In this document: one piece after another, positions 2,797 to 32,876 of the stretch
Layout: each line of letters opens with the position of its first letter
Numbering within the stretch: position 1 is the stretch's first letter
DNA from: Haloarcula rubra
GTDB taxonomy: Archaea; Halobacteriota; Halobacteria; Halobacteriales; Haloarculaceae
Direction: 5' to 3'
Assembly (NCBI RefSeq): GCF_019599465.1
Contig: NZ_RKLR01000020.1
Coordinates: 1-40,128, forward strand
DNA length: 40,128 nucleotides
Notes under the pieces: model-generated
What the model was told of the DNA's origin: nothing
Databases searched by the model: none
Seen by the model: only the letters and a program-made list of their open reading frames with translations
Made by a program: the position numbers and the translations under genes

Positions 2797-3023
2797 AATA
2801 AAAAACGGGCTGTCGGCGTCGTGTGGATCTCCGTCGCCTGTCGGGATCGACAATTGGCTGGCTCCCAAGCTCCGTTGAATCGGAATTGAATACTGGCCGT
2901 GATACTCAAGAATATGTCAACCGAAACCGATATATCTTGATTAGCGGGCCTATATTTAGGATGTTAATCTACTAAAACGGCTATCGTCAGATTTAGGCAG
3001 GTGGAAAACGGTTGCTTAGTCAA

Positions 3024-4166
3024 ATGAATCCTGCCGATTTTGAGGACGGGCCGGGATGGATCGACCCATACGAGGAGATTCCGTGCTACCAACCTGCTGG
3101 GCTCCCACCGGAACTCTCCTACACCGACGACATCCTCCGCGCCTACGGGGACGCACGCTATGCACTCGGACAGCTCTCGACACTCCACGACGACATCGAG
3201 AACGAGAACCTTCTCATCGCACCGTTTGTCGTCCGAGAGGCGGCGATGAGTTCGCAAATCGAAGGTACTGATGTCACTGTCTCCGATATTGTCCTTCACA
3301 ATCTCGACGACGATCCAGAGCGTTCAGCAGCCAACCTGCGCGATATCCGAGAAGCGTATAATTACGTCGAAGCAATTCGGACGGGATTCAACGCTTTGGA
3401 TGAAGGCAGACAGATCGATCAGGAACTTCTCTGTGACCTCCACGAATCATTACTGATCGATGTCCGTGGCGAGAACAAGCGTCCGGGACACATTCGAGAT
3501 GATCTCCCTGTCATGATTGGTCCGGACAACCACATCGAAAACGCTCGATTCGTCCCGGCAAATCCAAACAGTGTCGCACTCCTCCTTGATCAGTTACTCT
3601 CGTACATCAGAAACGGGAGCTACCCGCCGCTGATCGATATCGCGATTACGCACTATCAGTTCGAGACAATCCACCCATTCCGGGATGGAAATGGACGGCT
3701 CGGACGGCTTCTCATTATGTTGCAACTCTACCAGGCGAACCTTCTCTCTGAGCCGTATCTGTACCTGTCGGCGTATTTTAACCACTACCGGACTGAGTAC
3801 TTCGACCGCCTCCTCGCTGTGAGTCAACACGGTGAATGGGGGGCGTGGATCACGTTCGTCCTGAACGCGATAGCTGAGCAGGCTATCGATGCCTACCAGT
3901 GTGGCATTGAACTTGTGTCGCTCCGTTCGGACTACCGGAACCGCTTTCCGAACAGCCCAGCAGTCCGGGATGTCATCGATCATCTGTTTGAAGAGCCGTA
4001 TCTTCAAGCCCCACGAGCCATCGACGCAACTGCTCGCTCACGACAGGCAGTCTACGACGCGATTGAGAAACTCAGCGACGAAGGAATCATCGTAGAATTG
4101 ACTGATAAAGAGCGGAACAGGGTTTACAAAGCGCCGGACATCCTTGCCCTCGTTGAATCTCCCTGA
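3024..4166 (+). CDS. Fic-domain AMP-transferase family protein 1
   Basis: The product has 380 residues from ATG 3024; a TTG at 3012 is an alternative start. The Fic active-site motif HPFRDGNGRLGR lies around residue 217; its histidine is the catalytic base and the rest binds ATP phosphates. An N-terminal inhibitory-helix motif SSQIEG (about residue 76) matches the (S/T)xxxE(G/N) signature of self-inhibited class II Fic proteins. The C-terminus (about 310-375) is a winged helix (ATARSRQAVYDAIEKL) typical of large Fic proteins. Fic proteins transfer AMP to hydroxyl side chains of target proteins. Two intact paralogs follow at 12.2 and 14.6 kb. The target is unknown. Confidence 0.92.
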   Translation: MNPADFEDGPGWIDPYEEIPCYQPAGLPPELSYTDDILRAYGDARYALGQLSTLHDDIENENLLIAPFVVREAAMSSQIEGTDVTVSDIVLHNLDDDPERSAANLRDIREAYNYVEAIRTGFNALDEGRQIDQELLCDLHESLLIDVRGENKRPGHIRDDLPVMIGPDNHIENARFVPANPNSVALLLDQLLSYIRNGSYPPLIDIAITHYQFETIHPFRDGNGRLGRLLIMLQLYQANLLSEPYLYLSAYFNHYRTEYFDRLLAVSQHGEWGAWITFVLNAIAEQAIDAYQCGIELVSLRSDYRNRFPNSPAVRDVIDHLFEEPYLQAPRAIDATARSRQAVYDAIEKLSDEGIIVELTDKERNRVYKAPDILALVESP

Positions 4167-4509: not shown

Positions 4510-5916
4510 ATGTCGCATCCTCGCTTTATCAATCGCCAAGACGAGCTTGACCTGTTGCGGTCGCGGTTCGAGAGTGCGAGTGCTGAGTTACTCGTCATCT
4601 ACGGGCGACGACGGCTCGGGAAGAGTGCACTCGTCCGTGAGGCAATCAAAGGACAGGAGGATGCGGTATACTGGCAGGCGACAGAAGAAACGCCAGAGGC
4701 CCAACTTGCCAATTTCGTCGATACTGCTAGCGAGGCGTTTCCACTACTGGAAGACATCCAGCGTGACTGGGAAGCACTGTTGCGGGCGCTTGGTCGAGAG
4801 GATGCTATCGTCGTTCTTGATGAGTTTCCGTATCTCGTTGAGTCCGACGACGCACTCCCCTCGAAGGTACAGCGTGTCTGGGACATGCATCTTGAGGACA
4901 CAGAGATGACGCTCGTACTCGTCGGCTCTTCGATTAGCATCATGGAGGAGAAGGTCCTCAGCGGTGGGAGTCCGTTGTATGGTCGCCGAACCGCGAGTAT
5001 TGACTTACCGCCGCTTTCGTTGGACGATGCACGGGAGTTCTATCCCACCGAGGATTCAGATGAGGAGATTCAGTTCTGGGGTGTCTTCGGTGGGACACCA
5101 TACTATCTTCAAGCACTGGCACCGGATGCGACGCTTGCAGAAAATATCCAGTCACTCATCCTCTCCGAGCATGGCGTCCTCCGCAACGAACCGGAATTCC
5201 TGCTGCGGACGGAGTTCGGGATTCGCGAGCCACAGACCTACTACACGATTTTGAGAGCGATTGCCACTGGAAAGCGCGCAGCCAACGAGATTGCGGATTT
5301 CGCGGGAGTGGACTCCAACGCGCTCGGGTCTTACCTCTCGAAACTTCGTCGACTCAGACTCGTTGAGCGTGACATCCCGGTGACGGCGAACCCGAACGCC
5401 ACTCGCAAGAGCCGATACCGGCTAAAAGAGCCCCTGTTTCGCTTCTGGTTCCGCTATGTCTACGGACAGGAGGGTAAAATCTCACAGCTCGGTGATGACG
5501 CATACGCGGAGCTTGTCAACCCGTCGTTAACAGACTACATGGGCCCGATGTTCGAGTTAGTCTGTCAGAACGCCCTTTCCTCGTTGGTTCCGAAGACATA
5601 CCGTGGGATTGGGTACTGGTGGCATCAACATCACGAACTGGACGTCGTCGGCCTTGCAAGCGATGGTACGCTCGTCGCCGGCGAGTGCAAGTACACTACC
5701 CGACAGATGCATGAGGGCGATCTTGCCGATCTCGAACGCAGTGCGTCGCACGTAGATTGGACTCCGCCTGGTGGAGGTGACCCCACCAATCATTACTGCT
5801 GTTTCTGCCGCTCCGGCTTCTCGGATGGACTACAGCAGGTCGCCGACGAACGGGCCGACGTCTCGCTGTTCGCGCCCGACGATATCGTTTCGGGGCTGTC
5901 AGCGACCCACCGCTGA
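4510..5916 (+). CDS. Archaeal ATPase with DUF234 nuclease-like domain (copy 1)
   Basis: The product has 468 residues. Walker A GRRRLGKSAL is at about residues 32-41 and Walker B IVVLDEFPYL at about 98-107, followed by a sensor-like LVLVGSS. A winged-helix segment (about 240-300) precedes the DUF234 part, where HELDVVG...GECKY fits a PD-(D/E)xK-type core. Such proteins are STAND-like archaeal ATPases of unclear role, often in mobile DNA. A paralog lies at 29.9-31.3 kb. The last residues are encoded by the right end of the tnpB element at 5.9 kb (the genes overlap by 18 bp tail to tail), so the natural C-terminus has probably been replaced. Confidence 0.88.
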   Translation: MSHPRFINRQDELDLLRSRFESASAELLVIYGRRRLGKSALVREAIKGQEDAVYWQATEETPEAQLANFVDTASEAFPLLEDIQRDWEALLRALGREDAIVVLDEFPYLVESDDALPSKVQRVWDMHLEDTEMTLVLVGSSISIMEEKVLSGGSPLYGRRTASIDLPPLSLDDAREFYPTEDSDEEIQFWGVFGGTPYYLQALAPDATLAENIQSLILSEHGVLRNEPEFLLRTEFGIREPQTYYTILRAIATGKRAANEIADFAGVDSNALGSYLSKLRRLRLVERDIPVTANPNATRKSRYRLKEPLFRFWFRYVYGQEGKISQLGDDAYAELVNPSLTDYMGPMFELVCQNALSSLVPKTYRGIGYWWHQHHELDVVGLASDGTLVAGECKYTTRQMHEGDLADLERSASHVDWTPPGGGDPTNHYCCFCRSGFSDGLQQVADERADVSLFAPDDIVSGLSATHR

Positions 5917-7191
5917 AGCTGTGGGCTTGTCGGTGGACTCCCGTTCTGCCGACACGGGCGTGTCGGACGCCACGTCAGTAGCGTTCACGGTCATTATCCC
6001 CGACTTCAGGGCGTACTGACTGAACGCCCCTCCAGCGAGGGACTTCTGCCCCCGCTGGAGTTTGAATGCGAGTTTCCGCGCCACGTTCTTCGCCGCGTTG
6101 TAGTCGGCGTTCACCGAGTACGAACAGTCGAGGCAGGCGAACTGTTGTCCCTCTCGGTTTTCCCCGAGCGTACAGCCACATTTCGAGCATTGCTGGCTGG
6201 TGTAGGACGATTCGACTGTCTCGACCACGATGTCGTGTTCGTCGGCTTTGTACGCGACTTGTTCCTGCAACGCACGGAATGCCCACTGCTGGAATTTCTT
6301 GCCGTCGCTGATACGCTCACGAATCCGCTCTAAGTCCTCGAACGCGATGTGCGTACAACCGTGGCACTTGGCTTCCGCGACTATCTGCTTGGAACACTGA
6401 TGGAGGTAATCCTCACTCCAGCACCCGAACCTGTCACCGATACGATGGTAGGTCAGATGGGCGCTCCGCGTGCCTGTCTGTTGCAAGCTGGCACGCCGTT
6501 TCTCGAACTCACGGCGCTTGTGGTTGAGGTAGTCAGCGTTTCCGATGAACCTGCCCGTACTGGTGACGGCGATGTGGTCGTCAACGTTGCAGTCCACGCC
6601 GAGGACTCTCGAATCCTCGGCTTTCTCAGGACCGCTCGCGTCTATCTCCCGTTCCATCGCGGCGTGCAGGTAGAACTTGTCGGCTTCGCTGTCGTAGTGG
6701 ACGGTGCTTGTTGAGAAAGAGTAGTCGTCGTTCAACAGGTACTCGCCGTGTGGTGTGCCTTCTGGGTCGTCGGGCAGGTCGTACTCGCATTCGACTCTAC
6801 CGTTGACGGTGGCGAGGCTCACTTTGTCGCGGTAGTAGGTGGCGGCTCGCTTGTCGTAGACGATGCTGAACGTGTCGTATTCGGGCTTGCTGGTGTTTTC
6901 GCCCTCGGCCAGCCTGTCTACGCAGTTGTCGATGTCGTCGGTGGCGCGTTTGATGGCTTTCTGAACCAGATTCGCGTGCAGGTAGTCTGTTTCTTCCCGA
7001 AGATCATCGTAGATTGCGCTTTCAGCTTCGCTCTTGCTGGTCACGCAGTCACCCTCAGGATAGCGCCATGCCCAGTCTGCGGTACGATTCGCGCAATACT
7101 GGAATTTGGAATTGGTAGCGTGGAGGTCGCTCTTACGGTCGTCAGGCACGTCGAGGCGGACGCGAACCGTCCGAGTTACCTCCCACGCCAT
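5899..7191 (-). CDS. tnpB: TnpB RNA-guided endonuclease (IS200/IS605 type), copy 1
   Basis: The product has 430 residues. The RuvC-like catalytic residues are present: D in GVDCNVDDHIAV, E in HIAFEDLERI and D in NADYNAAKN. A zinc ribbon of two CxxC pairs (CSKCG, CLDC) lies between the last two. TnpB uses an RNA made from the element's right end to cut DNA and keep the element in place. No tnpA is adjacent, so the element depends on a transposase in trans. The C-terminal tail (STDKPTASAVGR) is encoded within the right-end hairpin sequence. It looks intact and active. Confidence 0.93.
   Translation of the reverse strand: MAWEVTRTVRVRLDVPDDRKSDLHATNSKFQYCANRTADWAWRYPEGDCVTSKSEAESAIYDDLREETDYLHANLVQKAIKRATDDIDNCVDRLAEGENTSKPEYDTFSIVYDKRAATYYRDKVSLATVNGRVECEYDLPDDPEGTPHGEYLLNDDYSFSTSTVHYDSEADKFYLHAAMEREIDASGPEKAEDSRVLGVDCNVDDHIAVTSTGRFIGNADYLNHKRREFEKRRASLQQTGTRSAHLTYHRIGDRFGCWSEDYLHQCSKQIVAEAKCHGCTHIAFEDLERIRERISDGKKFQQWAFRALQEQVAYKADEHDIVVETVESSYTSQQCSKCGCTLGENREGQQFACLDCSYSVNADYNAAKNVARKLAFKLQRGQKSLAGGAFSQYALKSGIMTVNATDVASDTPVSAERESTDKPTASAVGR
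5906..6060 (-). ncRNA. Predicted right-end guide (omega) RNA scaffold of tnpB 1
   Basis: TnpB guide RNAs are processed from the 3' end of tnpB through the right end. On this stretch I see a 6-bp stem GGGCGT/ACGCCC (6009-6014 with 6024-6029), an 8-bp stem CTCCAGCG/CGCTGGAG (about 6030-6060), and the terminal hairpin CCCACCGC-TGAA-GCTGTGGG (5906-5925, one mismatch). The first stem is replaced by a compensatory version in elements 2 and 3. The RNA itself is inferred; the guide would continue into the flanking ATPase gene. Confidence 0.45.
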
Positions 7192-12201: not shown

Positions 12202-13467
12202 ATGAAAGACGGATACGACCTCGCTCCAGATGCGCCAGGTCAATATATGCCGCTTCGGACCGACGAACGTCTCCCGAAGGCATACTTTCCGAACAAACTC
12301 CCACCGACACTCGAACTGTCTGCTGATGTCATCGCAGAAGTGTCCAGAGCGATGTGGGCCCTCGGTCGGCTAGAAGGGCTCGGAAGTGAAATCGACAATC
12401 CTGGCGCTGTGTTCAGTTCGTTTGTTTATAAGGAGGCAGAGCAGTCGTCTCAGGTCGAAGGGACAGCAGTGACTGTATCTGACCTCTATCGATACGACGT
12501 TGATGAACGTCTGATTCGAGAGACGGTTGAGAGTGACCACGAAGCCGATATCAGAGAAGCTCGCAACTATATTACGGCACTAGACGATGCTATCTCGTTT
12601 CTCCAAACCGCCGGTATCGAACGACAGAGTATCACGACGGAGCTGATCAAGTCGCTCCACGAGCAGCTACTGATCAAGGGACGATCAGATGGGGACGACC
12701 CATTACCTGGTGAATTTCGGCCAGGGTACGCTATAATCGAAGAGGAGGGGCCACACGGCCTCGGGAATCAAATTCGGTTCGTTCCGCCGAAGCCAGAAAT
12801 GGTTCCGGGGCTGGTGGACGACCTGGAGCGGTTCATCCAGTTGGGGTCTGACTGGCCGGATCTAATCGACATCGCAATCGCTCACTACCAGTTCGAGACG
12901 ATTCATCCGTTCAAAGATGGCAATGGACGAGTTGGTCGACTGCTCGTCGTGCTCATGCTCGTCTCGAGTGGGCTACTCCACTATCCAATGCTCTACTTGA
13001 GTTCGTACATCGAACGCCATCGGACTGACTACGCCGACCGACTGTTAGCCGTGAGCGAAGAGGGCGCGTGGGACGAGTGGCTCCAGTTCTTCCTCCGGGG
13101 CATTCGCGAGCAGGCGGAAGAGGCGTTCGTCCGTGCGAGGCTCCTCGTTGATAAACGGAAAGAGTACGAGTCCCGATATGCGGACAAAGCGAAATCTGTC
13201 CGTTGGCTCTCACTCGCACTGTTCGAGGATCCGTATTTTACTGTCCGGGAGGCCAGCGAACGGCTCGGTGTTGTGTACCAGACTGCGAATAACGCCGTTG
13301 AAACACTCGAATCAGACGGCGTCATTGAAGAGATAACCGGCAACGACCAGAATCGAGTATTCAGGGCAACAGAAATCATGGATATCGTTGAGCGGCCTGC
13401 GAATACCCTTCCGAATCAAAGCGAATTCGTGGATCTTGAGCAGACGTGGAAACTGCCCGAGCGTTGA
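12202..13467 (+). CDS. Fic-domain AMP-transferase family protein 2
   Basis: The product has 421 residues. The Fic motif HPFKDGNGRVGR starts at H235 and the inhibitory-helix motif SSQVEG is at 82-87, so this is a self-inhibited class II Fic protein. The C-terminal winged helix (TVREASERLGVVYQTANNAVETLESDGVI) could bind DNA or protein and is followed by the FRATEI...ERPAN tail. The last 55 residues are closely matched by the remnant at 38.8-39.0 kb. The mRNA is predicted leaderless. Confidence 0.93.
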   Translation: MKDGYDLAPDAPGQYMPLRTDERLPKAYFPNKLPPTLELSADVIAEVSRAMWALGRLEGLGSEIDNPGAVFSSFVYKEAEQSSQVEGTAVTVSDLYRYDVDERLIRETVESDHEADIREARNYITALDDAISFLQTAGIERQSITTELIKSLHEQLLIKGRSDGDDPLPGEFRPGYAIIEEEGPHGLGNQIRFVPPKPEMVPGLVDDLERFIQLGSDWPDLIDIAIAHYQFETIHPFKDGNGRVGRLLVVLMLVSSGLLHYPMLYLSSYIERHRTDYADRLLAVSEEGAWDEWLQFFLRGIREQAEEAFVRARLLVDKRKEYESRYADKAKSVRWLSLALFEDPYFTVREASERLGVVYQTANNAVETLESDGVIEEITGNDQNRVFRATEIMDIVERPANTLPNQSEFVDLEQTWKLPER

Positions 13468-14624: not shown

Positions 14625-15791
14625 ATGAGAGGAATCGAGATAGAAGATACCGCACCCGGCGAACTCATTTCATACGGCAGAGAGTCGTACTACAGACCTG
14701 ATCCACTCCCGCCCTCGCGGGAGCTTACATTAGATGCCGACTTTTATGATTTGTTGGCTGACGCTACATTCTGGCTGGGCAAGCTCAGCGGCGTCAGCCT
14801 CGAACTTGATTTTCCGCCCGTCCTCTACACTTCGCTCCTCCGGAAAGAAGCAATGGAATCTGCCGAAATAGAGGGTGCCAATATCGATTACAACGCGCTC
14901 TATAGCCTCGAAAACCGCAGTCTTGATGAGACTACCGAACCAGCTCCCAGTGAATCCGACACGAAGGACACACAGGAAGTCCTCAACTACGAGCAGGCTA
15001 TCGAAGACGGCATTGACAAACTCGATAGCGGTGGAGAAATCTCCGTGTCGCTTCTTCACGGGCTTCACGAGACACTACTCACGGACGTTCCGGATGACCG
15101 CCTCGATACCGAGACAATTGGTGCGTATAAGACGGTCCCTAACCACCTTGGAGACTTTCTGCCACCAGTACCAGGAGAGATCGAAGGGCTCATGGACGCT
15201 CTGGTGACGTACTATCGGACTGGCGGTAGCTATCACACGCTCCTAGATATCGCACTGTTCCACTATCAGTTTGAAACGATCCATCCGTACGGCGATGGGA
15301 ACGGACGACTCGGTCGGCTCCTTATTACACTCCAACTGTACGACGCCGGGCTTCTCGAACGACCGAACCTCTATCTCAGCGAGTACTTCAATCGGAACAA
15401 GGCGAGTTACGTCGACCGAATGGAGGCAGTTCGCACCCACGGCGACTGGGAAGCATGGCTGTCGTTTTTCCTCAAAGGAATTGCACAGCAAGCCGAGGAA
15501 TCTGTCGATCGGACGCTAGCACTGGATACACTTCGCCGCCGTTATGAGAGCGAATTTGGAGGTGTCCAGTACGCGAAAAACCGTTTAGCGTGTACTCTCT
15601 TCGAGCAACCCTACGTGACGACTAAAACCGTCGCGAATCGGCTCGATATTGAGCGCTCAACGGCATACCGTGCGATTGCCGCCCTGGTGGACGAAGGTAT
15701 ACTGGAAGAGGTCACGGGCAAGAAGCGCAACAAGGAGTACCGTGCAAAGGAGATTTTCGATATTCTTGAACGCCCACCCCAAACGTACTGA
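14625..15791 (+). CDS. Fic-domain AMP-transferase family protein 3
   Basis: The product has 388 residues. The active-site motif is HPYGDGNGRLGR (H220), with Y-G in place of the usual F-x-D/E-x spacing residues, while the DGNGR core is kept. The inhibitory motif SAEIEG lies at 79-84. The C-terminal winged helix (TTKTVANRLDIERSTAYRAIAALVDEGIL) and the tail YRAKEIFDILERPP match the other copies. The N-terminus (DPLPPSRELTLDADF) diverges most among the three, which may set target choice. Confidence 0.92.
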   Translation: MRGIEIEDTAPGELISYGRESYYRPDPLPPSRELTLDADFYDLLADATFWLGKLSGVSLELDFPPVLYTSLLRKEAMESAEIEGANIDYNALYSLENRSLDETTEPAPSESDTKDTQEVLNYEQAIEDGIDKLDSGGEISVSLLHGLHETLLTDVPDDRLDTETIGAYKTVPNHLGDFLPPVPGEIEGLMDALVTYYRTGGSYHTLLDIALFHYQFETIHPYGDGNGRLGRLLITLQLYDAGLLERPNLYLSEYFNRNKASYVDRMEAVRTHGDWEAWLSFFLKGIAQQAEESVDRTLALDTLRRRYESEFGGVQYAKNRLACTLFEQPYVTTKTVANRLDIERSTAYRAIAALVDEGILEEVTGKKRNKEYRAKEIFDILERPPQTY

Positions 15792-15889: not shown

Positions 15890-15938
15890 GTGTTGGCTTC
15901 GTACCCAACACGCTTACCCTGTTGGGGAGAGAACCAAC
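15890..15938 (+). promoter_or_regulatory. Two tandem GTTGG-N8-CCAAC dyads
   Basis: GTGTTGG (15890-15896) and CCAACAC (15905-15911) form a perfect 7-bp dyad with an 8-bp centre. GTTGG (15921-15925) and CCAAC (15934-15938) repeat the arrangement with the same 8-bp centre. A further CCAAC half site is at 15860-15864. This looks like an operator for a dimeric regulator, most simply the HTH protein encoded at 16144. The 15792-15921 stretch holds no gene. Confidence 0.55.
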
Positions 15939-16119
15939 ACCTAGTGAACTGTCTCTGGGTCACGTAGTTCGAGACGGCGACGTTGTCTCGTCATCACCAG
16001 AGAACCTTTCGCTCTCTCGAACGACCCGAGGCACTCGGCCTGCCCCGCCTGTAGAGTTCTGGGCTAGTGCCGATGAGTACTGGGACGCCGTTGACGCCGG
16101 ACCAGACCGACCGTACTGA
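15922..16119 (+). CDS. Small ORF of uncertain start, upstream of the 16144 regulator
   Basis: A 65-codon frame opens at TTG 15922 and ends 24 bp before the next gene. The C-terminal half (PAPPVEFWASADEYWDAVDAGPDRPY) is acidic and protein-like. The only start-like codons (TTG 15922, CTG 15919) fall inside the operator dyad, so the true start is unclear and it may be a gene remnant. No family recognised. In related loci the partner of such regulators is a TumE-type toxin; this ORF does not show its H-rich motif. Confidence 0.4.
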   Translation: MGREPTPSELSLGHVVRDGDVVSSSPENLSLSRTTRGTRPAPPVEFWASADEYWDAVDAGPDRPY

Positions 16120-16560: not shown

Positions 16561-16635
16561 TGCGTATCACTGGTACATGTATCGACCATCAGGTGGTGCA
16601 GTGCCGCTTCTCTCCGGAAATGGCGCGCGATGAAC

Positions 16636-16651
16636 CGGCGCTCCCGCGCCG
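16636..16651. repeat. Hairpin between convergent genes
   Basis: CGGCGC (16636-16641) and GCGCCG (16646-16651) form a perfect 6-bp stem with a TCCC loop, nested in GC-rich flanks with CGCGC/GCGCG outer pairing. It lies between two converging genes and may aid termination. Confidence 0.4.
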
Positions 16652-16714
16652 AGAACGCGCGAGGGGCGTCCGAGCGAAGCGAGGACGACGGCTGGGGAGG
16701 CAACGGGCGTCAAC

Positions 16715-16721
16715 AAAAAAA
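16715..16721 (-). terminator. T-run terminator after the OB-fold gene
   Basis: Seven T residues on the minus strand begin 15 bp after the stop of the OB-fold gene, following GC-rich sequence. Runs of T are the main intrinsic termination signal in archaea. Confidence 0.55.
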
Positions 16722-16736
16722 GACCGCCCGCTCGGT

Positions 16737-17588
16737 CTACAACCGCTCGCTGCGCTCGCGTTCGGGGAACTCGACCCTGCTCCAGCCCGTCAGTGCCACC
16801 GAGACGCGCCCTTCGTACCAGCTCTTTGCGACCCCACGGAACCGCACCCACTCGCCTTCTCGAACCAGTTTCATGTCCGACTTCGTCCAGGCCGTGAACT
16901 TCGTCGTCCCCGTCTCGTCTTCGATGAGGCCCACCTGAGAGATGGTCGGCGTCGTCGGCTCCCAGAGCACCGTGACCCGCCCTTCGATACACACCTCGCT
17001 TCGATTCGTCGCCGCCAGTTTCCCGATCGGGACGACCATCCCCGGTGCGAGCCACTCTTCTTCGGTCACCAAGACCGACGCATCCACGATATCCGCACCG
17101 TCTGCCATCTTCTGGGCCACGCGCTTCGAGAGCGCCGCCGTCGTCGTTCCCGTCCGGACCCGTTCGTGTATCCGCCACGCCTGCTGATTCACGCTCGCCA
17201 ACTCCGCCCGAGAGAGTTCGCTTCGTGGGTCCACCCGCTTTGAGTCCGCCCACTTATCCACGCTCGCCGCTCGCTCCTCGAATCGCCGACGTCGCGCTTC
17301 GTTCTTCCGTTCGACCACGGCCCTCGTCCGTGCCTCTCGGTCCGAGTCCGCTCTGCAGTCCCACCGGGTTCGGGTTCGCGAAATCTCCCACTCGCGTGCC
17401 TTCAACCGCTCCTCCCCCTCCAGGGTGAGGCCCCGTCCAGCCGCCTCGTAGTGGTTCGTATCGACGGTGCCCTGTATCTCTTGTTCGACCGACCGCCGCA
17501 GCTCCGGCGTCTCGTCGACGACGGCTTTCTGTTCAACGCGCTGTTCCTCGTGCCAACCTTCATATCCGATTGAATTCTCTATACTCAT
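16737..17588 (-). CDS. OB-fold single-stranded-DNA-binding-like protein
   Basis: The product has 283 residues. The N-terminal two thirds are charged and helical, rich in R and E (about 60-110), suggesting a coiled coil. From about residue 185 (MVVPIGKLAATNRSEVCIEGRVTVLWEPTTPTISQVGLIEDETGTTKF) the pattern is an RPA-type OB fold: a GRV strand, I-S-Q-V-G-L-I-E-D-E-T-G-T-T-K-F, then VREGEWVRFRGVAKSWYEGRVSVAL. Such proteins bind single-stranded DNA and are widespread on haloarchaeal plasmids. The gene is followed by a T-run and preceded by the hairpin tract. Role in replication or transfer is inferred. Confidence 0.82.
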   Translation of the reverse strand: MSIENSIGYEGWHEEQRVEQKAVVDETPELRRSVEQEIQGTVDTNHYEAAGRGLTLEGEERLKAREWEISRTRTRWDCRADSDREARTRAVVERKNEARRRRFEERAASVDKWADSKRVDPRSELSRAELASVNQQAWRIHERVRTGTTTAALSKRVAQKMADGADIVDASVLVTEEEWLAPGMVVPIGKLAATNRSEVCIEGRVTVLWEPTTPTISQVGLIEDETGTTKFTAWTKSDMKLVREGEWVRFRGVAKSWYEGRVSVALTGWSRVEFPERERSERL

Positions 17589-18389
17589 TGCAGTTAACCT
17601 GAAGGCGCCTACTCAGCGTCTTCTACCTTCCACGACTCTCCAGCCGTGGCTCTCATCACACCTCGACGACACCGACATCCTCGCGCGCTGTCCGCGCCTT
17701 CACGCGCCCGACAGGGCGCGGGCAGCGCGCGCCTTCGACAGGCACATCCAGAACCGCGCGACCGGCCAGGCCGCCCGAGCGGCCAGTTTCAAGTCGGTTT
17801 CCGGTCTGAGGCACGAAGACCGAAACCGCACTTGATGCTGGCGTCCCGAAAGGGCGAGCGAGGAACGAACAGCGAACGGCGTTCGCTGTGAGTGGTGCGG
17901 GCGTCGGCCGGGCGAGCGGGGCGGGCCACCCATAGACCCATCCAACCGCTTCCTGGTGGACTGAAAGGGCGAGGGCCGCTCGAGGAACCCCGACGACGTC
18001 CTCGCAAGAGCGCGGTGCTCTTGCGGGATGCTGAAAATCGCGGCCAGCGATTTTCAAAGCACAAGCACTGCAGCGAACGGCGTGAGCGAAGTCGTTCGAA
18101 AGGCGCATTGCGCCTTTCGTGATGACGAGAGAGCTTTGCTCTCTCGAACCACGCGCAGCGAGTCGTGGGAGTCGAACGGCCCGAGGGCTTTCGAGGTCAC
18201 TGTAACACTCTCAGTATCTCCTTCACAGTCGTCGACAGAACTGCACGCAACACAACGCTCGACTGGTCTCCCTGAGACACACCACTGCTTCGAGTGAAGG
18301 ACGGCGTGATAGCCTCTACTAAGACGCAGACTCGAAATTCTCACTCCAGCAATCTCCTCTCTCACTCTCGCCTCACCATTCGCTTCGTC
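17589..18389. repeat. Non-coding tract of serial perfect hairpins
   Basis: The tract holds at least eight inverted repeats with short loops. They are: 17682-17698/17715-17731 (17-bp arms, one mismatch); 17790-17807/17817-17834 (18-nt arms with small bulges); 17869-17877/17881-17889 (ACAGCGAAC, loop GGC); 18003-18011/18017-18025 (CGCAAGAGC); 18032-18041/18047-18056 (TGAAAATCGC); 18074-18079/18093-18098 (CGAACG); 18097-18106/18110-18119 (CGAAAGGCGC, loop ATT); 18126-18134/18138-18146 (CGAGAGAGC, loop TTT). A weaker one is at 18149-18153/18164-18168. Open frames here are arginine- and proline-rich and unlike neighbouring proteins, so I call it non-coding. About 18200-18389 shows nothing else. 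Function unknown. Confidence 0.75.
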
Positions 18390-18869: not shown

Positions 18870-19457
18870 TCAGGCTGAGAGTCCGTCTATGTCTTCGGCG
18901 AATGCACCCTTCGACCGATCGCTGGAACCAGCCTCATCAGAACTTCCACGGTCGGGATCGAAGTCATACAGAGAGAGCGCCGCCTGTGCGAGGTCGAGAT
19001 TCTCCTCGATTGCCTGCCACTGTGAGATGATCTCCCAGCCGTCGTCAGCAGGCTCCAGTTCAAGTGCGAGGTCATCTGGGTTGGTCACGTCGTACTCGTC
19101 TTGATACGCCTGTATCTGGGACTTGAGCGACTGGATACCCGCTATCAACTCATCTCGTGTGAGCTCGGTGTGCAGTTCCTTTATCCGTTCCATCGCGATG
19201 GATTCGCTGGAGCGCTTGAACCGAGTTCCCTGGCCCGTGTTTTCGGTTGCTGCAAAGCCGCTGTCTGCGAGTGTTCGGAGATGCTTGCGAGCGCTCGGTT
19301 CGCTTACGCGAGCACGTTCAGCAATCGTCCCAGCATAGTGGAACGACGTCGTCGAGAGCAGGACCTCTTTGACGCGTTCGAATGGAGACGTTTCGTCTTT
19401 CCACTCCTCGACAACCGCTTCGTTCACGTCGCCCGTCCACAGACGGTCCTTTTCCAT
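18870..19457 (-). CDS. DUF7342-like winged-helix protein 1 (putative antitoxin)
   Basis: The product has 195 residues from ATG 19457 (MEKDRLWTGD); the longer frame to 19709 enters a non-acidic stretch and is rejected. The conserved start VVEEWKDETSPFERVKEVLLSTTSFHYAGTIAERARVSEPSARKHLRTL is an HTH with the W-x-E-x-x-S-x-F-E-R-V signature shared with the 19708 gene. A helical tail (SQIQAYQDEYDVTNPDDL) follows. It comes first in an operon with the TumE-like gene, the usual antitoxin-first order. The family number is from memory. Confidence 0.72.
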   Translation of the reverse strand: MEKDRLWTGDVNEAVVEEWKDETSPFERVKEVLLSTTSFHYAGTIAERARVSEPSARKHLRTLADSGFAATENTGQGTRFKRSSESIAMERIKELHTELTRDELIAGIQSLKSQIQAYQDEYDVTNPDDLALELEPADDGWEIISQWQAIEENLDLAQAALSLYDFDPDRGSSDEAGSSDRSKGAFAEDIDGLSA

Positions 19458-19707
19458 TGTTGTCTCTGGATACGAGATAGGGGCAAAAATAGTTTTGTGC
19501 GCTATATCTATATTTTTCTTTGGGACGGTGACGACGGATGGGCTCTTTGAACCACGTACAGCGGGTTGAGGGATCCGATGGCTCTGGGAGCTTTCGAGAT
19601 AACTGCTCTCCCCAACGTCCCTACACCCCTCTCCGCCGTCGTCGATAACGAAGTGAATAATTTGACCCACAGATACAATTATACATTTACAAATCCAACG
19701 GACTAGC
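19458..19707. promoter_or_regulatory. Divergent promoter region between two HTH/TumE-like units
   Basis: The 250 bp between the two starts contain AT-rich blocks at each end: GCTATATCTATATTTTTC (about 19500-19517) on the side of the leftward gene, and CAATTATACATTTAC (about 19676-19690) 20-30 bp before ATG 19708. The middle shows no gene. A shared operator is likely but not identified. Confidence 0.5.
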
Positions 19708-20271
19708 ATGACACCGACTGATCAGGACGACGCCGACGTTCCCAGCGACACGGATGGTGCGTCGGGTGACGCCGCCTGGAAGGAACACACGAGTGCGTTC
19801 GATCGTGTTCGCTCTGTCGCGCTCTCACTATCAGACCCACGCTCTGCGGGATGGATCGCAGCGGAAGCACTCGTCGCCGAGAACACGGCTCGTCGGCACT
19901 TAGATAGCCTCGTAGAGCTCCACGTCCTCACCACGGATACGACGGGCAGTGCCGTCACGTACTATCCAGACCCGGTGTACGTCCGCACCCGTGATCTCCG
20001 CGAACTCGTCACCGAACACGATCGTGACGAACTCACCAAACTGGCCGCAGATCTGAAAGCCGACGTCGAGTCGTGGCAAGACGAATACGACGTGCGCTCG
20101 CCGGACGAACTCCGCAGTACCGCGGCTGGCGAAGAGACCTCTGCTGAGGAGGCTAGGGTGCGGCGACGCACTGCGAGTGACTGGGAACTCACGGAGTACC
20201 GTCTCTCCCTTATCGAAGATGCACTGTCGCGGTACGATGAGTACAGCGATACGCGGACGGCGACAGCGTGA
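19708..20271 (+). CDS. DUF7342-like winged-helix protein 2 (putative antitoxin)
   Basis: The product has 187 residues. AWKEHTSAFDRVRSVALSLSDPRSAGWIAAEALVAENTARRHLDSL aligns by eye with the HTH of the 18870 gene. The tail again contains a helix with SWQDEYDVRSPDEL, close to AYQDEYDVTNPDDL in its partner, so the two genes are paralogs. A TATA-like TTATACATT about 28 bp upstream implies a nearly leaderless mRNA. Its stop overlaps the next start by one base (TGATG). Confidence 0.75.
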   Translation: MTPTDQDDADVPSDTDGASGDAAWKEHTSAFDRVRSVALSLSDPRSAGWIAAEALVAENTARRHLDSLVELHVLTTDTTGSAVTYYPDPVYVRTRDLRELVTEHDRDELTKLAADLKADVESWQDEYDVRSPDELRSTAAGEETSAEEARVRRRTASDWELTEYRLSLIEDALSRYDEYSDTRTATA

Positions 20272-23439: not shown

Positions 23440-23520
23440 CTACTCCAGCCGGTCCTCGATACGCTCCCGTGCACTTGCATTGATTCGGTCGGCAATGTCT
23501 GCGACATCAGCCTCTGTCAG
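23440..23520 (-). pseudogene. vapB-like antitoxin 3' remnant, cut by tnpB element 2
   Basis: The minus strand reads LTEADVADIADRINASARER... ending at TAG 23440-23442, 9 bp before the vapC remnant start: the expected vapB-vapC spacing. The frame is cut at about 23520 exactly where the tnpB element's right end begins. The 5' half is not found on the other side of the element in this window. Confidence 0.6.
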
Positions 23521-24818
23521 TTACCCACGACTGAAGTCGTGGGCTTGTCAGTGGACTCCCCTTCTGCCGTCGATTCGACGGAGGCGTGGAAATCGCCGTT
23601 CAGGTTCAACGTCCCTGACGTTAGCGCACACTGACAGAGTGCGCCTCCACCCGAAGACTTCTGCCCCGAATGGAGACCCTTGAGAAGTTTACGAGCAATA
23701 TTCTTGCTCGCGTTGTAATCCGCGTTCAGTTCGTACTCACACTTCTGGCACACGAACCGGTGTTTCGACCGTCGATTGTTCTCGTGTGTAAACCCACACG
23801 ATGAACACCGCTGAGACGTGTACGCGGGACTCACCTGTCTCACATCGATTCCGTACATCTCGGCTTTGTATTCGACGTACTGGTAGAGGCGTCGGAACGC
23901 CCATGCGTGGAATCGTTTCGCACCAGCCATCCGCTTGCGGATGTCGGTCAGGTTCTCGAACGCGATATGCGTACACTCGTGGTCACGGGCTTCGTCGAGA
24001 ATCTGGTTCGAGACACGGTGGAGTTCGTCCTGCATCCAGCGGTGTTCGCGGTCTTTCAGTGACTGAATCGACAAATGTGCCGACCGCGTGCCCGTCTGTT
24101 GCATCGACCCCCGAGTCTTCTCGTATTCCCGGCGTCGATGATTCATCTCATCAGCGTTCCCGATGAACGCGCCAGTCGAAGTCACAGCGAGCGAGCCGTC
24201 CACGTTCAGGTCAACGCCAAGGACTGTTTTGTGCTTGGCGTCAGAAGTAATCGTGGACTGTTCTGTCTCGTCGTTTCCAGTTTGGCGCATTCGTGCGTGG
24301 AGATAGAACGACCCTGTGGAGCGGTCGTACTGCAACGTGGACATACGGAACTCGTAGTCCTCGTTCAGCAGGTACTCACCAATCGGCGTCCCCTCGGGTT
24401 CGTCGGGAAGCACGTACTCACACTCGACACGACCGTTCACTGTTGAAAGCGAAACGTGGTCGCGGTGGAACGTCGCTGAGCGCTTGTCGTAGACGACGCT
24501 CCACGCTTCGAAGTGCGGTTGACTCGTGTTCTCTCCTTTCTTGAGTCGGGCGACACCACTTTTGATGGCCTCGATAGCGCGTCGAATCCCTTTCTGAACG
24601 AGGTTCGCTGTCAACTCCGTCTCGCCTCGAAGTCGCTCGTAGAGGGCGTTCTCGGCCGTTTGTTTTGAGGTCACGCAGTAGTCGTTCGGGTGTCTCCACG
24701 CCCACTCTGCGGTGGTGTTCGCACAATGGAGGAACTGGTCTTTGGTCTGCTGGAGGTCGTCGCACCGCTCTGTGGGTACGTCAAGTTTGACTTTGACGGT
24801 GCGAATTATGTCCTCCAC
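23517..24818 (-). CDS. tnpB: TnpB RNA-guided endonuclease (IS200/IS605 type), copy 2
   Basis: The product has 433 residues. Catalytic residues: D in GVDLNVDGSLAV, E in HIAFENLTDI and D in NADYNASKN. Zinc ribbon CSSCG...CQKC. The C-terminal tail STDKPTTSVVGN matches copy 1 because both run through the right-end hairpin. The two copies share long stretches elsewhere (AYTSQ, TSTGAFIGNADE) and belong to one subfamily. No tnpA is adjacent. It looks intact. Confidence 0.93.
   Translation of the reverse strand: MEDIIRTVKVKLDVPTERCDDLQQTKDQFLHCANTTAEWAWRHPNDYCVTSKQTAENALYERLRGETELTANLVQKGIRRAIEAIKSGVARLKKGENTSQPHFEAWSVVYDKRSATFHRDHVSLSTVNGRVECEYVLPDEPEGTPIGEYLLNEDYEFRMSTLQYDRSTGSFYLHARMRQTGNDETEQSTITSDAKHKTVLGVDLNVDGSLAVTSTGAFIGNADEMNHRRREYEKTRGSMQQTGTRSAHLSIQSLKDREHRWMQDELHRVSNQILDEARDHECTHIAFENLTDIRKRMAGAKRFHAWAFRRLYQYVEYKAEMYGIDVRQVSPAYTSQRCSSCGFTHENNRRSKHRFVCQKCEYELNADYNASKNIARKLLKGLHSGQKSSGGGALCQCALTSGTLNLNGDFHASVESTAEGESTDKPTTSVVGN

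Positions 24819-31459: not shown

Positions 31460-32876
<1,417 letters not shown>

Follow-up and report, generated by a model that had tools for sequence, protein, structure and literature searches.

The question raised by this locus is whether an 801-bp run of hairpins adjoining a gene for an OB-fold protein is one functional object, such as a folded RNA or an origin, or an assembly of separate elements. The window, i.e., the whole stretch of DNA that was analyzed, is a 40,128-bp contig within a 4.67-Mb haloarchaeal assembly. The tract (17589–18389) has its border immediately before the OB start codon (17586–17588). Five perfect non-overlapping hairpins (arms of at least 8 bp, loops of 1–16 nt) were found in it, compared with a mean of 0.27 and a maximum of 2 in 100 dinucleotide shuffles of the tract and an average of about 0.5 in 801-bp stretches along the window. 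These hairpins are as follows (A and the modules are described below):

17869–17889: 10 bp, loop of 1 nt, arms ACAGCGAACG/CGTTCGCTGT, in the variable middle of A
18003–18025: 9 bp, module 1
18032–18056: 10 bp, module 1
18097–18119: 11 bp, loop of 1 nt, module 2
18126–18146: 9 bp, module 2

The excess of hairpins described in an earlier note is therefore real (5 vs 0.27 expected), but they do not form the one coherent interval that was envisaged, which divides into two parts. The note also counted at least eight inverted repeats; five are perfect, and imperfect ones, e.g., 17682–17731 (17 nt, 94%), raise the total towards this number. Four perfect hairpins, not five, were counted in 18003–18146, and two of the perfect hairpins have 1-nt loops, below the reported range of 3–16 nt. 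The proposal that the tract is non-coding and under structural selection was borne out: the longest ORF within it had no Pfam match, and conservation falls on stems and not on codons. Compared with shuffles, the folding z-score of the tract was −6.6 on the plus strand and −3.5 on the minus strand. No Rfam match above any gathering score was detected in the window.

When 146 genomes of the family were searched at the DNA level, the tract separated into parts with different distributions. Long matches to positions 1–410 of the query adjoined OB genes, and positions 370–610 matched dispersed sites in many genera. These parts were designated A (17589–~17935) and C (17958–18192); the stretch at 18200–18389 contributes nothing, and a related third block (E) lies outside the tract at 16622–16700. 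The features of the locus are:

16622..16700, plus strand: E, outer end of the unit, from GGCGCGCG to GGCTGGGGAGG, oriented as in dispersed E-C units
16715..16721, minus strand: T-run after the OB stop codon (AAAAAAA on the plus strand), probably a terminator
16737..17588, minus strand: OB-fold gene, 283 aa, with an archaeal RPA/SSB-like OB domain (residues ~198–273) behind a helical region
17589..17935 (far border approximate), minus strand: A, structured leader, with the same motifs upstream of OB homologs
17601–17623: motif pair of A, GAAGACGC/GCGCCTTC
17630–17649: hairpin of A
17682–17731: long GC-rich stem of A
17958..18192, plus strand: C, one copy of a ~100-nt dispersed repeat, here lengthened by the insertion of two modules, ends set by sequence
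17999..18062 (borders approximate), plus strand: module 1, hairpins 18003–18025 and 18032–18056, missing from clean C copies
18091..18154 (borders approximate), plus strand: module 2, GTCGTTCGA-hairpin-CGTGATGACGA-hairpin-TCGAACCACG, hairpins 18097–18119 and 18126–18146

Block A precedes OB homologs in genomes from across Halobacteria. We compared 69 OB loci from genomes and plasmids; in 67 of them, a motif of the GCGCCTT type lies shortly before the ATG. This motif was followed by a hairpin of at least 4 bp ending at the ATG in 78% of the 67 loci, vs 10% of shuffled segments, and 23 different stem sequences were present in this hairpin, which is weak in the window's own copy of A. Farther upstream, A contains a hairpin with a class-specific stem and then the long GC-rich stem. 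In the strand test, wobble counts in A disagreed between helices and methods, and because of this conflict no strand was assigned to its structure.

Block C starts with GGACTGAAAGGGC and ends with GAGGGCTTTC. Where clean copies lie upstream of other OB genes, they measure about 100 nt and form a single long stem that encloses a stem-loop; the interrupted copy in the window is scored weakly by the covariance model. Double compensatory changes occurred in 18 of 27 pairs among 19 copies and in 20 of the 27 among 73 copies collected by the covariance model. Paired cells in the alignment of the 73 copies amounted to 95.3%, compared with 71.4% when shuffled and 34–45% when slid, and the covariation score was 0.554 vs 0.146; fitting this alignment to its covariance model somewhat favors structure, and the contrasts with the shuffled and slid versions are still large. 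Wobble pairs flanked by Watson-Crick pairs comprised 44 G-U and 17 A-C when read on the plus strand, a bias that points to one strand being under selection, either as RNA or as single-stranded DNA. C was present in 46 of 60 relatives, with at least 67 scored copies in one genome, and an exact 18-mer of C (GGTGGGACTGAAAGGGGC) occurred in up to 42 copies per genome, with none for the reversed control. The copies are often paired head to head, ~35 nt apart, and others stand alone. No description of the repeat or its 14-mer was found in the open-access papers searched.

The strong covariation of C and its strand-biased wobble pairs would also be expected if C, alone or with E, were a family of small structured non-coding RNA genes on the plus strand, dispersed by recombination, with the OB gene as a neighbor whose product may bind them. 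However, hairpins of single-stranded DNA would give the same G-T bias, and head-to-head arrays with dozens of copies look like REP/BIME repeats and not like RNA genes. In addition, Rfam searches with clean C copies returned only chance-level miRNA matches. We consider this explanation unlikely. Inspection by eye revealed no common TATA-like position upstream of C.

Four of the five perfect hairpins of the tract belong to two ~60-bp repeats nested in the C copy. The same module as module 1 was present in C copies of other genomes (e.g., loci L011, L016 and L017), and the exact module core, CGTGATGACGA-N(8–38)-TCGAACCAC, was detected in 264 of 391 haloarchaeal genomes and 74 of 86 genera, with zero matches in the control. 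The second hairpins of the module were of 81 distinct kinds, nearly all Watson-Crick paired, and the strand test showed no preference for either strand (G-U 4, A-C 5). At one orthologous locus, C with the module was found in genomes G000 and G022, C without the module in G019, and no C in G028. Some genomes with several module copies had no OB match at the threshold used.

Besides their positions inside C copies, modules were located next to the 3′ ends of some TnpB genes, in both orientations. The possibility that the module is a TnpB omega RNA was initially favored on the basis of an in-frame TnpB C-terminus in locus L135. This reading of the CGTGATGACGA module was dropped because most copies had no detected TnpB nearby and both orientations occurred: TnpB was detected within about 1.5 kb of only 5 of 38 module loci, once on the opposite strand, so the module does not keep to the tnpB 3′ end on the tnpB strand. 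A parallel is provided by the small mobile repeats (SMRs) of Haloquadratum, whose insertion sites are palindromes of IS605-type elements, near TnpB ends (PMC3119063). The modules are likewise short, palindromic, inserted in palindromes of other elements and found near TnpB ends, and their presence or absence at orthologous sites is illustrated by the G019 copy of C, which lacks the module; compared by description, they are about 60 bp long, whereas SMR-A is about 110 bp and SMR-B starts from 80 bp (PMC3119063).

These data do not support the idea of one coherent RNA or origin built of the hairpins, as the most conspicuous ones are nested modules found in 264 of the 391 genomes, the modules examined lie mostly away from OB genes, and C itself is dispersed. 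The same dispersal would suit a tract in which unrelated intergenic repeats of the REP-like and SMR-like types have accumulated without any functional connection to the OB gene. However, A and E travel with OB genes across families, and the orientation of C at OB genes and its frequency there, described below, weaken this alternative further; we regard it as improbable.

Most of the loci compared have a conserved block E past the OB stop codon. It is about 80–90 nt long in most copies, and in most loci the T-run separates it from the stop codon. Its outer border is sharp, at CGCGCC or CAGCCAC(G/A)ACC, and the flanks diverge beyond it. An exact pattern detected E joined to C without OB, with a spacer of 15–45 nt, in 44 of the 391 genomes, with as many as 42 units in one genome and zero in the control. 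Since E is joined to C elsewhere, the OB locus has the appearance of an E-C unit whose ends flank OB and A on the opposite strand. C was detected within 900 nt upstream of the OB gene in 19 of 69 loci, always in one orientation (19:0), compared with 0 of 345 shuffled controls, counts that are uncorrected for kinship. A recognizable C is thus present at only about a quarter of OB loci, at a frequency far above its genomic density. E, A and C keep a fixed order and orientation relative to OB. The linkage to the OB gene suggested in the earlier note is therefore upheld, by A upstream of the OB homologs examined and by C in its single orientation. That note had also named generic dispersed hairpins with no link to OB as the contrary outcome; the hairpins are indeed dispersed, but the link exists.

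On these grounds, we propose that the tract comprises the leader of the OB gene and one end of a haloarchaeal composite repeat unit, whose arrangement in the sense of OB is C, spacer, A, OB, T-run and E. We give this proposal about an even chance of being correct. The position of A, which abuts the start codon, the fact that its last hairpin reaches to the ATG in most loci, and the conserved order and orientation of the blocks might instead indicate that A and C together are a 5′ leader (UTR) of the OB mRNA acting in cis, via the OB protein or another factor, and that E serves in regulation or processing at the 3′ end. This alternative appears rather unlikely, as many C and E copies occur without OB, E lies beyond the T-run, and the wobble bias of C favors the strand opposite to the OB mRNA. 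A composite repeat unit remains our preferred reading, and E-OB-A-C is then best read as the coding member of an undescribed haloarchaeal repeat or mobile-element family resembling PATE/IS605 or REP/BIME. More tentatively, it may represent an undescribed archaeal class of mobile elements whose sole protein is an RPA-like single-strand binder and whose ends (C and E), maintained by selection as folded single strands, spread as high-copy non-autonomous units across Halobacteria; we view this as possible, with the chances somewhat against it. Neither a clean empty site nor a target duplication was found for the OB unit (in Haloferax) or an E-C copy (in Haloarcula), and flanks of units inspected by eye had neither a duplication nor a constant target.

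The OB protein itself resembles archaeal RPA/SSB proteins. In profile searches it matched PRK07217 at an E-value of 3.4e-17, over only about 75 residues and with 62.8 bits vs a family cut-off of 353 bits. The best fold match was 2ken; 2kbn was also matched, and PDB 1o7i served as a further RPA/SSB comparison structure. Its AlphaFold2 model had a mean pLDDT of 79.8, and no clear homolog was identified for the N-terminal helical region. No transposase, nuclease or recombinase was detected by profile or fold. A hidden transposase was considered and rejected, since the fold search gave only OB-fold matches, and no conserved His was present among the invariant residues. In contrast to archaeal RPA/SSB, the OB gene is often plasmid-borne, multicopy and accompanied by structured flanks. 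Of the 391 genomes, 229 contained a homolog. The genome of the window has another OB gene on contig C37 (L124), which has diverged to 46% identity and is accompanied by A, C and E blocks of its own.

Plasmids carry many of the OB homologs (192 plasmid records), and this, together with the resemblance to single-strand-binding proteins, raises the possibility that the tract serves as an origin of replication or transfer to which the OB protein binds. We find this very improbable: several OB units may be present in one genome, also on chromosome-size contigs, C and E-C occur in dozens of copies, and, of the window genes surveyed, none beside the tract was for replication or a relaxase.

The composite unit was further compared with two known systems. 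Palindrome-associated transposable elements (PATEs) and IS605-type elements of haloarchaea (PMC3119063) are similar in their hosts, intergenic location, many non-coding copies and smaller repeats nested within them. They also carry palindromes near the termini, have no terminal inverted repeats and insert beside a fixed short target without duplicating it; in the unit, the hairpin-rich blocks C and E lie at the two presumed ends, and no terminal inverted repeats were seen. Unlike autonomous PATE/IS605 members, however, the unit has neither TnpA nor TnpB, its sole ORF being the RPA-like OB protein; here, the two were compared by description. The second system involves the REP/BIME repeats of bacteria, to which RAYTs, tyrosine transposases, are tied (PMC2817692). 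They are paralleled by C as short intergenic structured repeats of high copy number (at least 67) in alternating orientation, with head-to-head composites of fixed spacing (~35 nt) and one type of gene accompanied by a copy. They differ in that the OB protein lacks the RAYT tyrosine transposase (Y1) fold, and in that C is about 100 nt long with conserved internal sequence and resides in archaeal hosts. Because the defining transposase was not found in the unit, we did not assign the unit to either PATE/IS605 or REP/BIME-RAYT.

If the unit is mobile, E and C may be the ends of an element of the palindrome-ended, single-strand type, as in PATE/IS605 or REP/BIME. Its movement would pass through a folded single strand, with the cutting presumably carried out by a transposase supplied in trans. 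The OB protein, being RPA/SSB-like, might bind this folded strand or its transcript, and its binding to the tract is possible. The leader A would control OB expression, and units without OB would be non-autonomous derivatives.

Haloarchaeal genomes contain many unexplained intergenic hairpins. If our reading is correct, a large share of them would fall into one describable family, sharing a consensus structure and comprising a coding member and its derivatives, in parallel to the way REP/RAYT accounts for bacterial extragenic palindromes, and a single-strand-binding protein may be named as a candidate partner for the repeats. The modules in C exemplify repeats within repeats. The covariance model of C can be used for annotation of haloarchaeal genomes and for checks against existing RNA-seq data.

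Several other features were observed in the window and in related loci. Three TnpB-type genes (Cas12f1-like TNB/OrfB_IS605) are present on the 40-kb contig, none directly beside the tract among the window genes surveyed. In plasmid PHS2 of Halobacterium salinarum R1 (L163:558-1703), the OB homolog OE_RS11435 has a TnpB gene (OE_RS11440) on its own strand, ~700 nt upstream. A search of a phage collection gave no match. A separate MITE-like element, an 80–90-bp repeat with terminal inverted repeats (ATACGAATTATTGTAG), was found at L223:1013-1102 in genome G018, and the orthologous site was empty in several Haloarcula genomes. Additional features of the window include:

5899–7191 (minus), 23517–24818 (minus) and 31812–32831 (plus): TnpB-type genes
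about 15930–16010, minus strand: a remnant like a TnpB-element end, with a TGATGACGA module followed by TTCAC
1825–2784: TFIIB-type gene, beside the Fic-domain genes
3012–4166, 12202–13467 and 14625–15791, plus strand: three Fic-domain proteins within 13 kb, adjoining the TFIIB-type gene
18870–19709 (minus) and 19708–20271 (plus): two DUF7342 helix-turn-helix proteins on opposite strands, with overlapping starts
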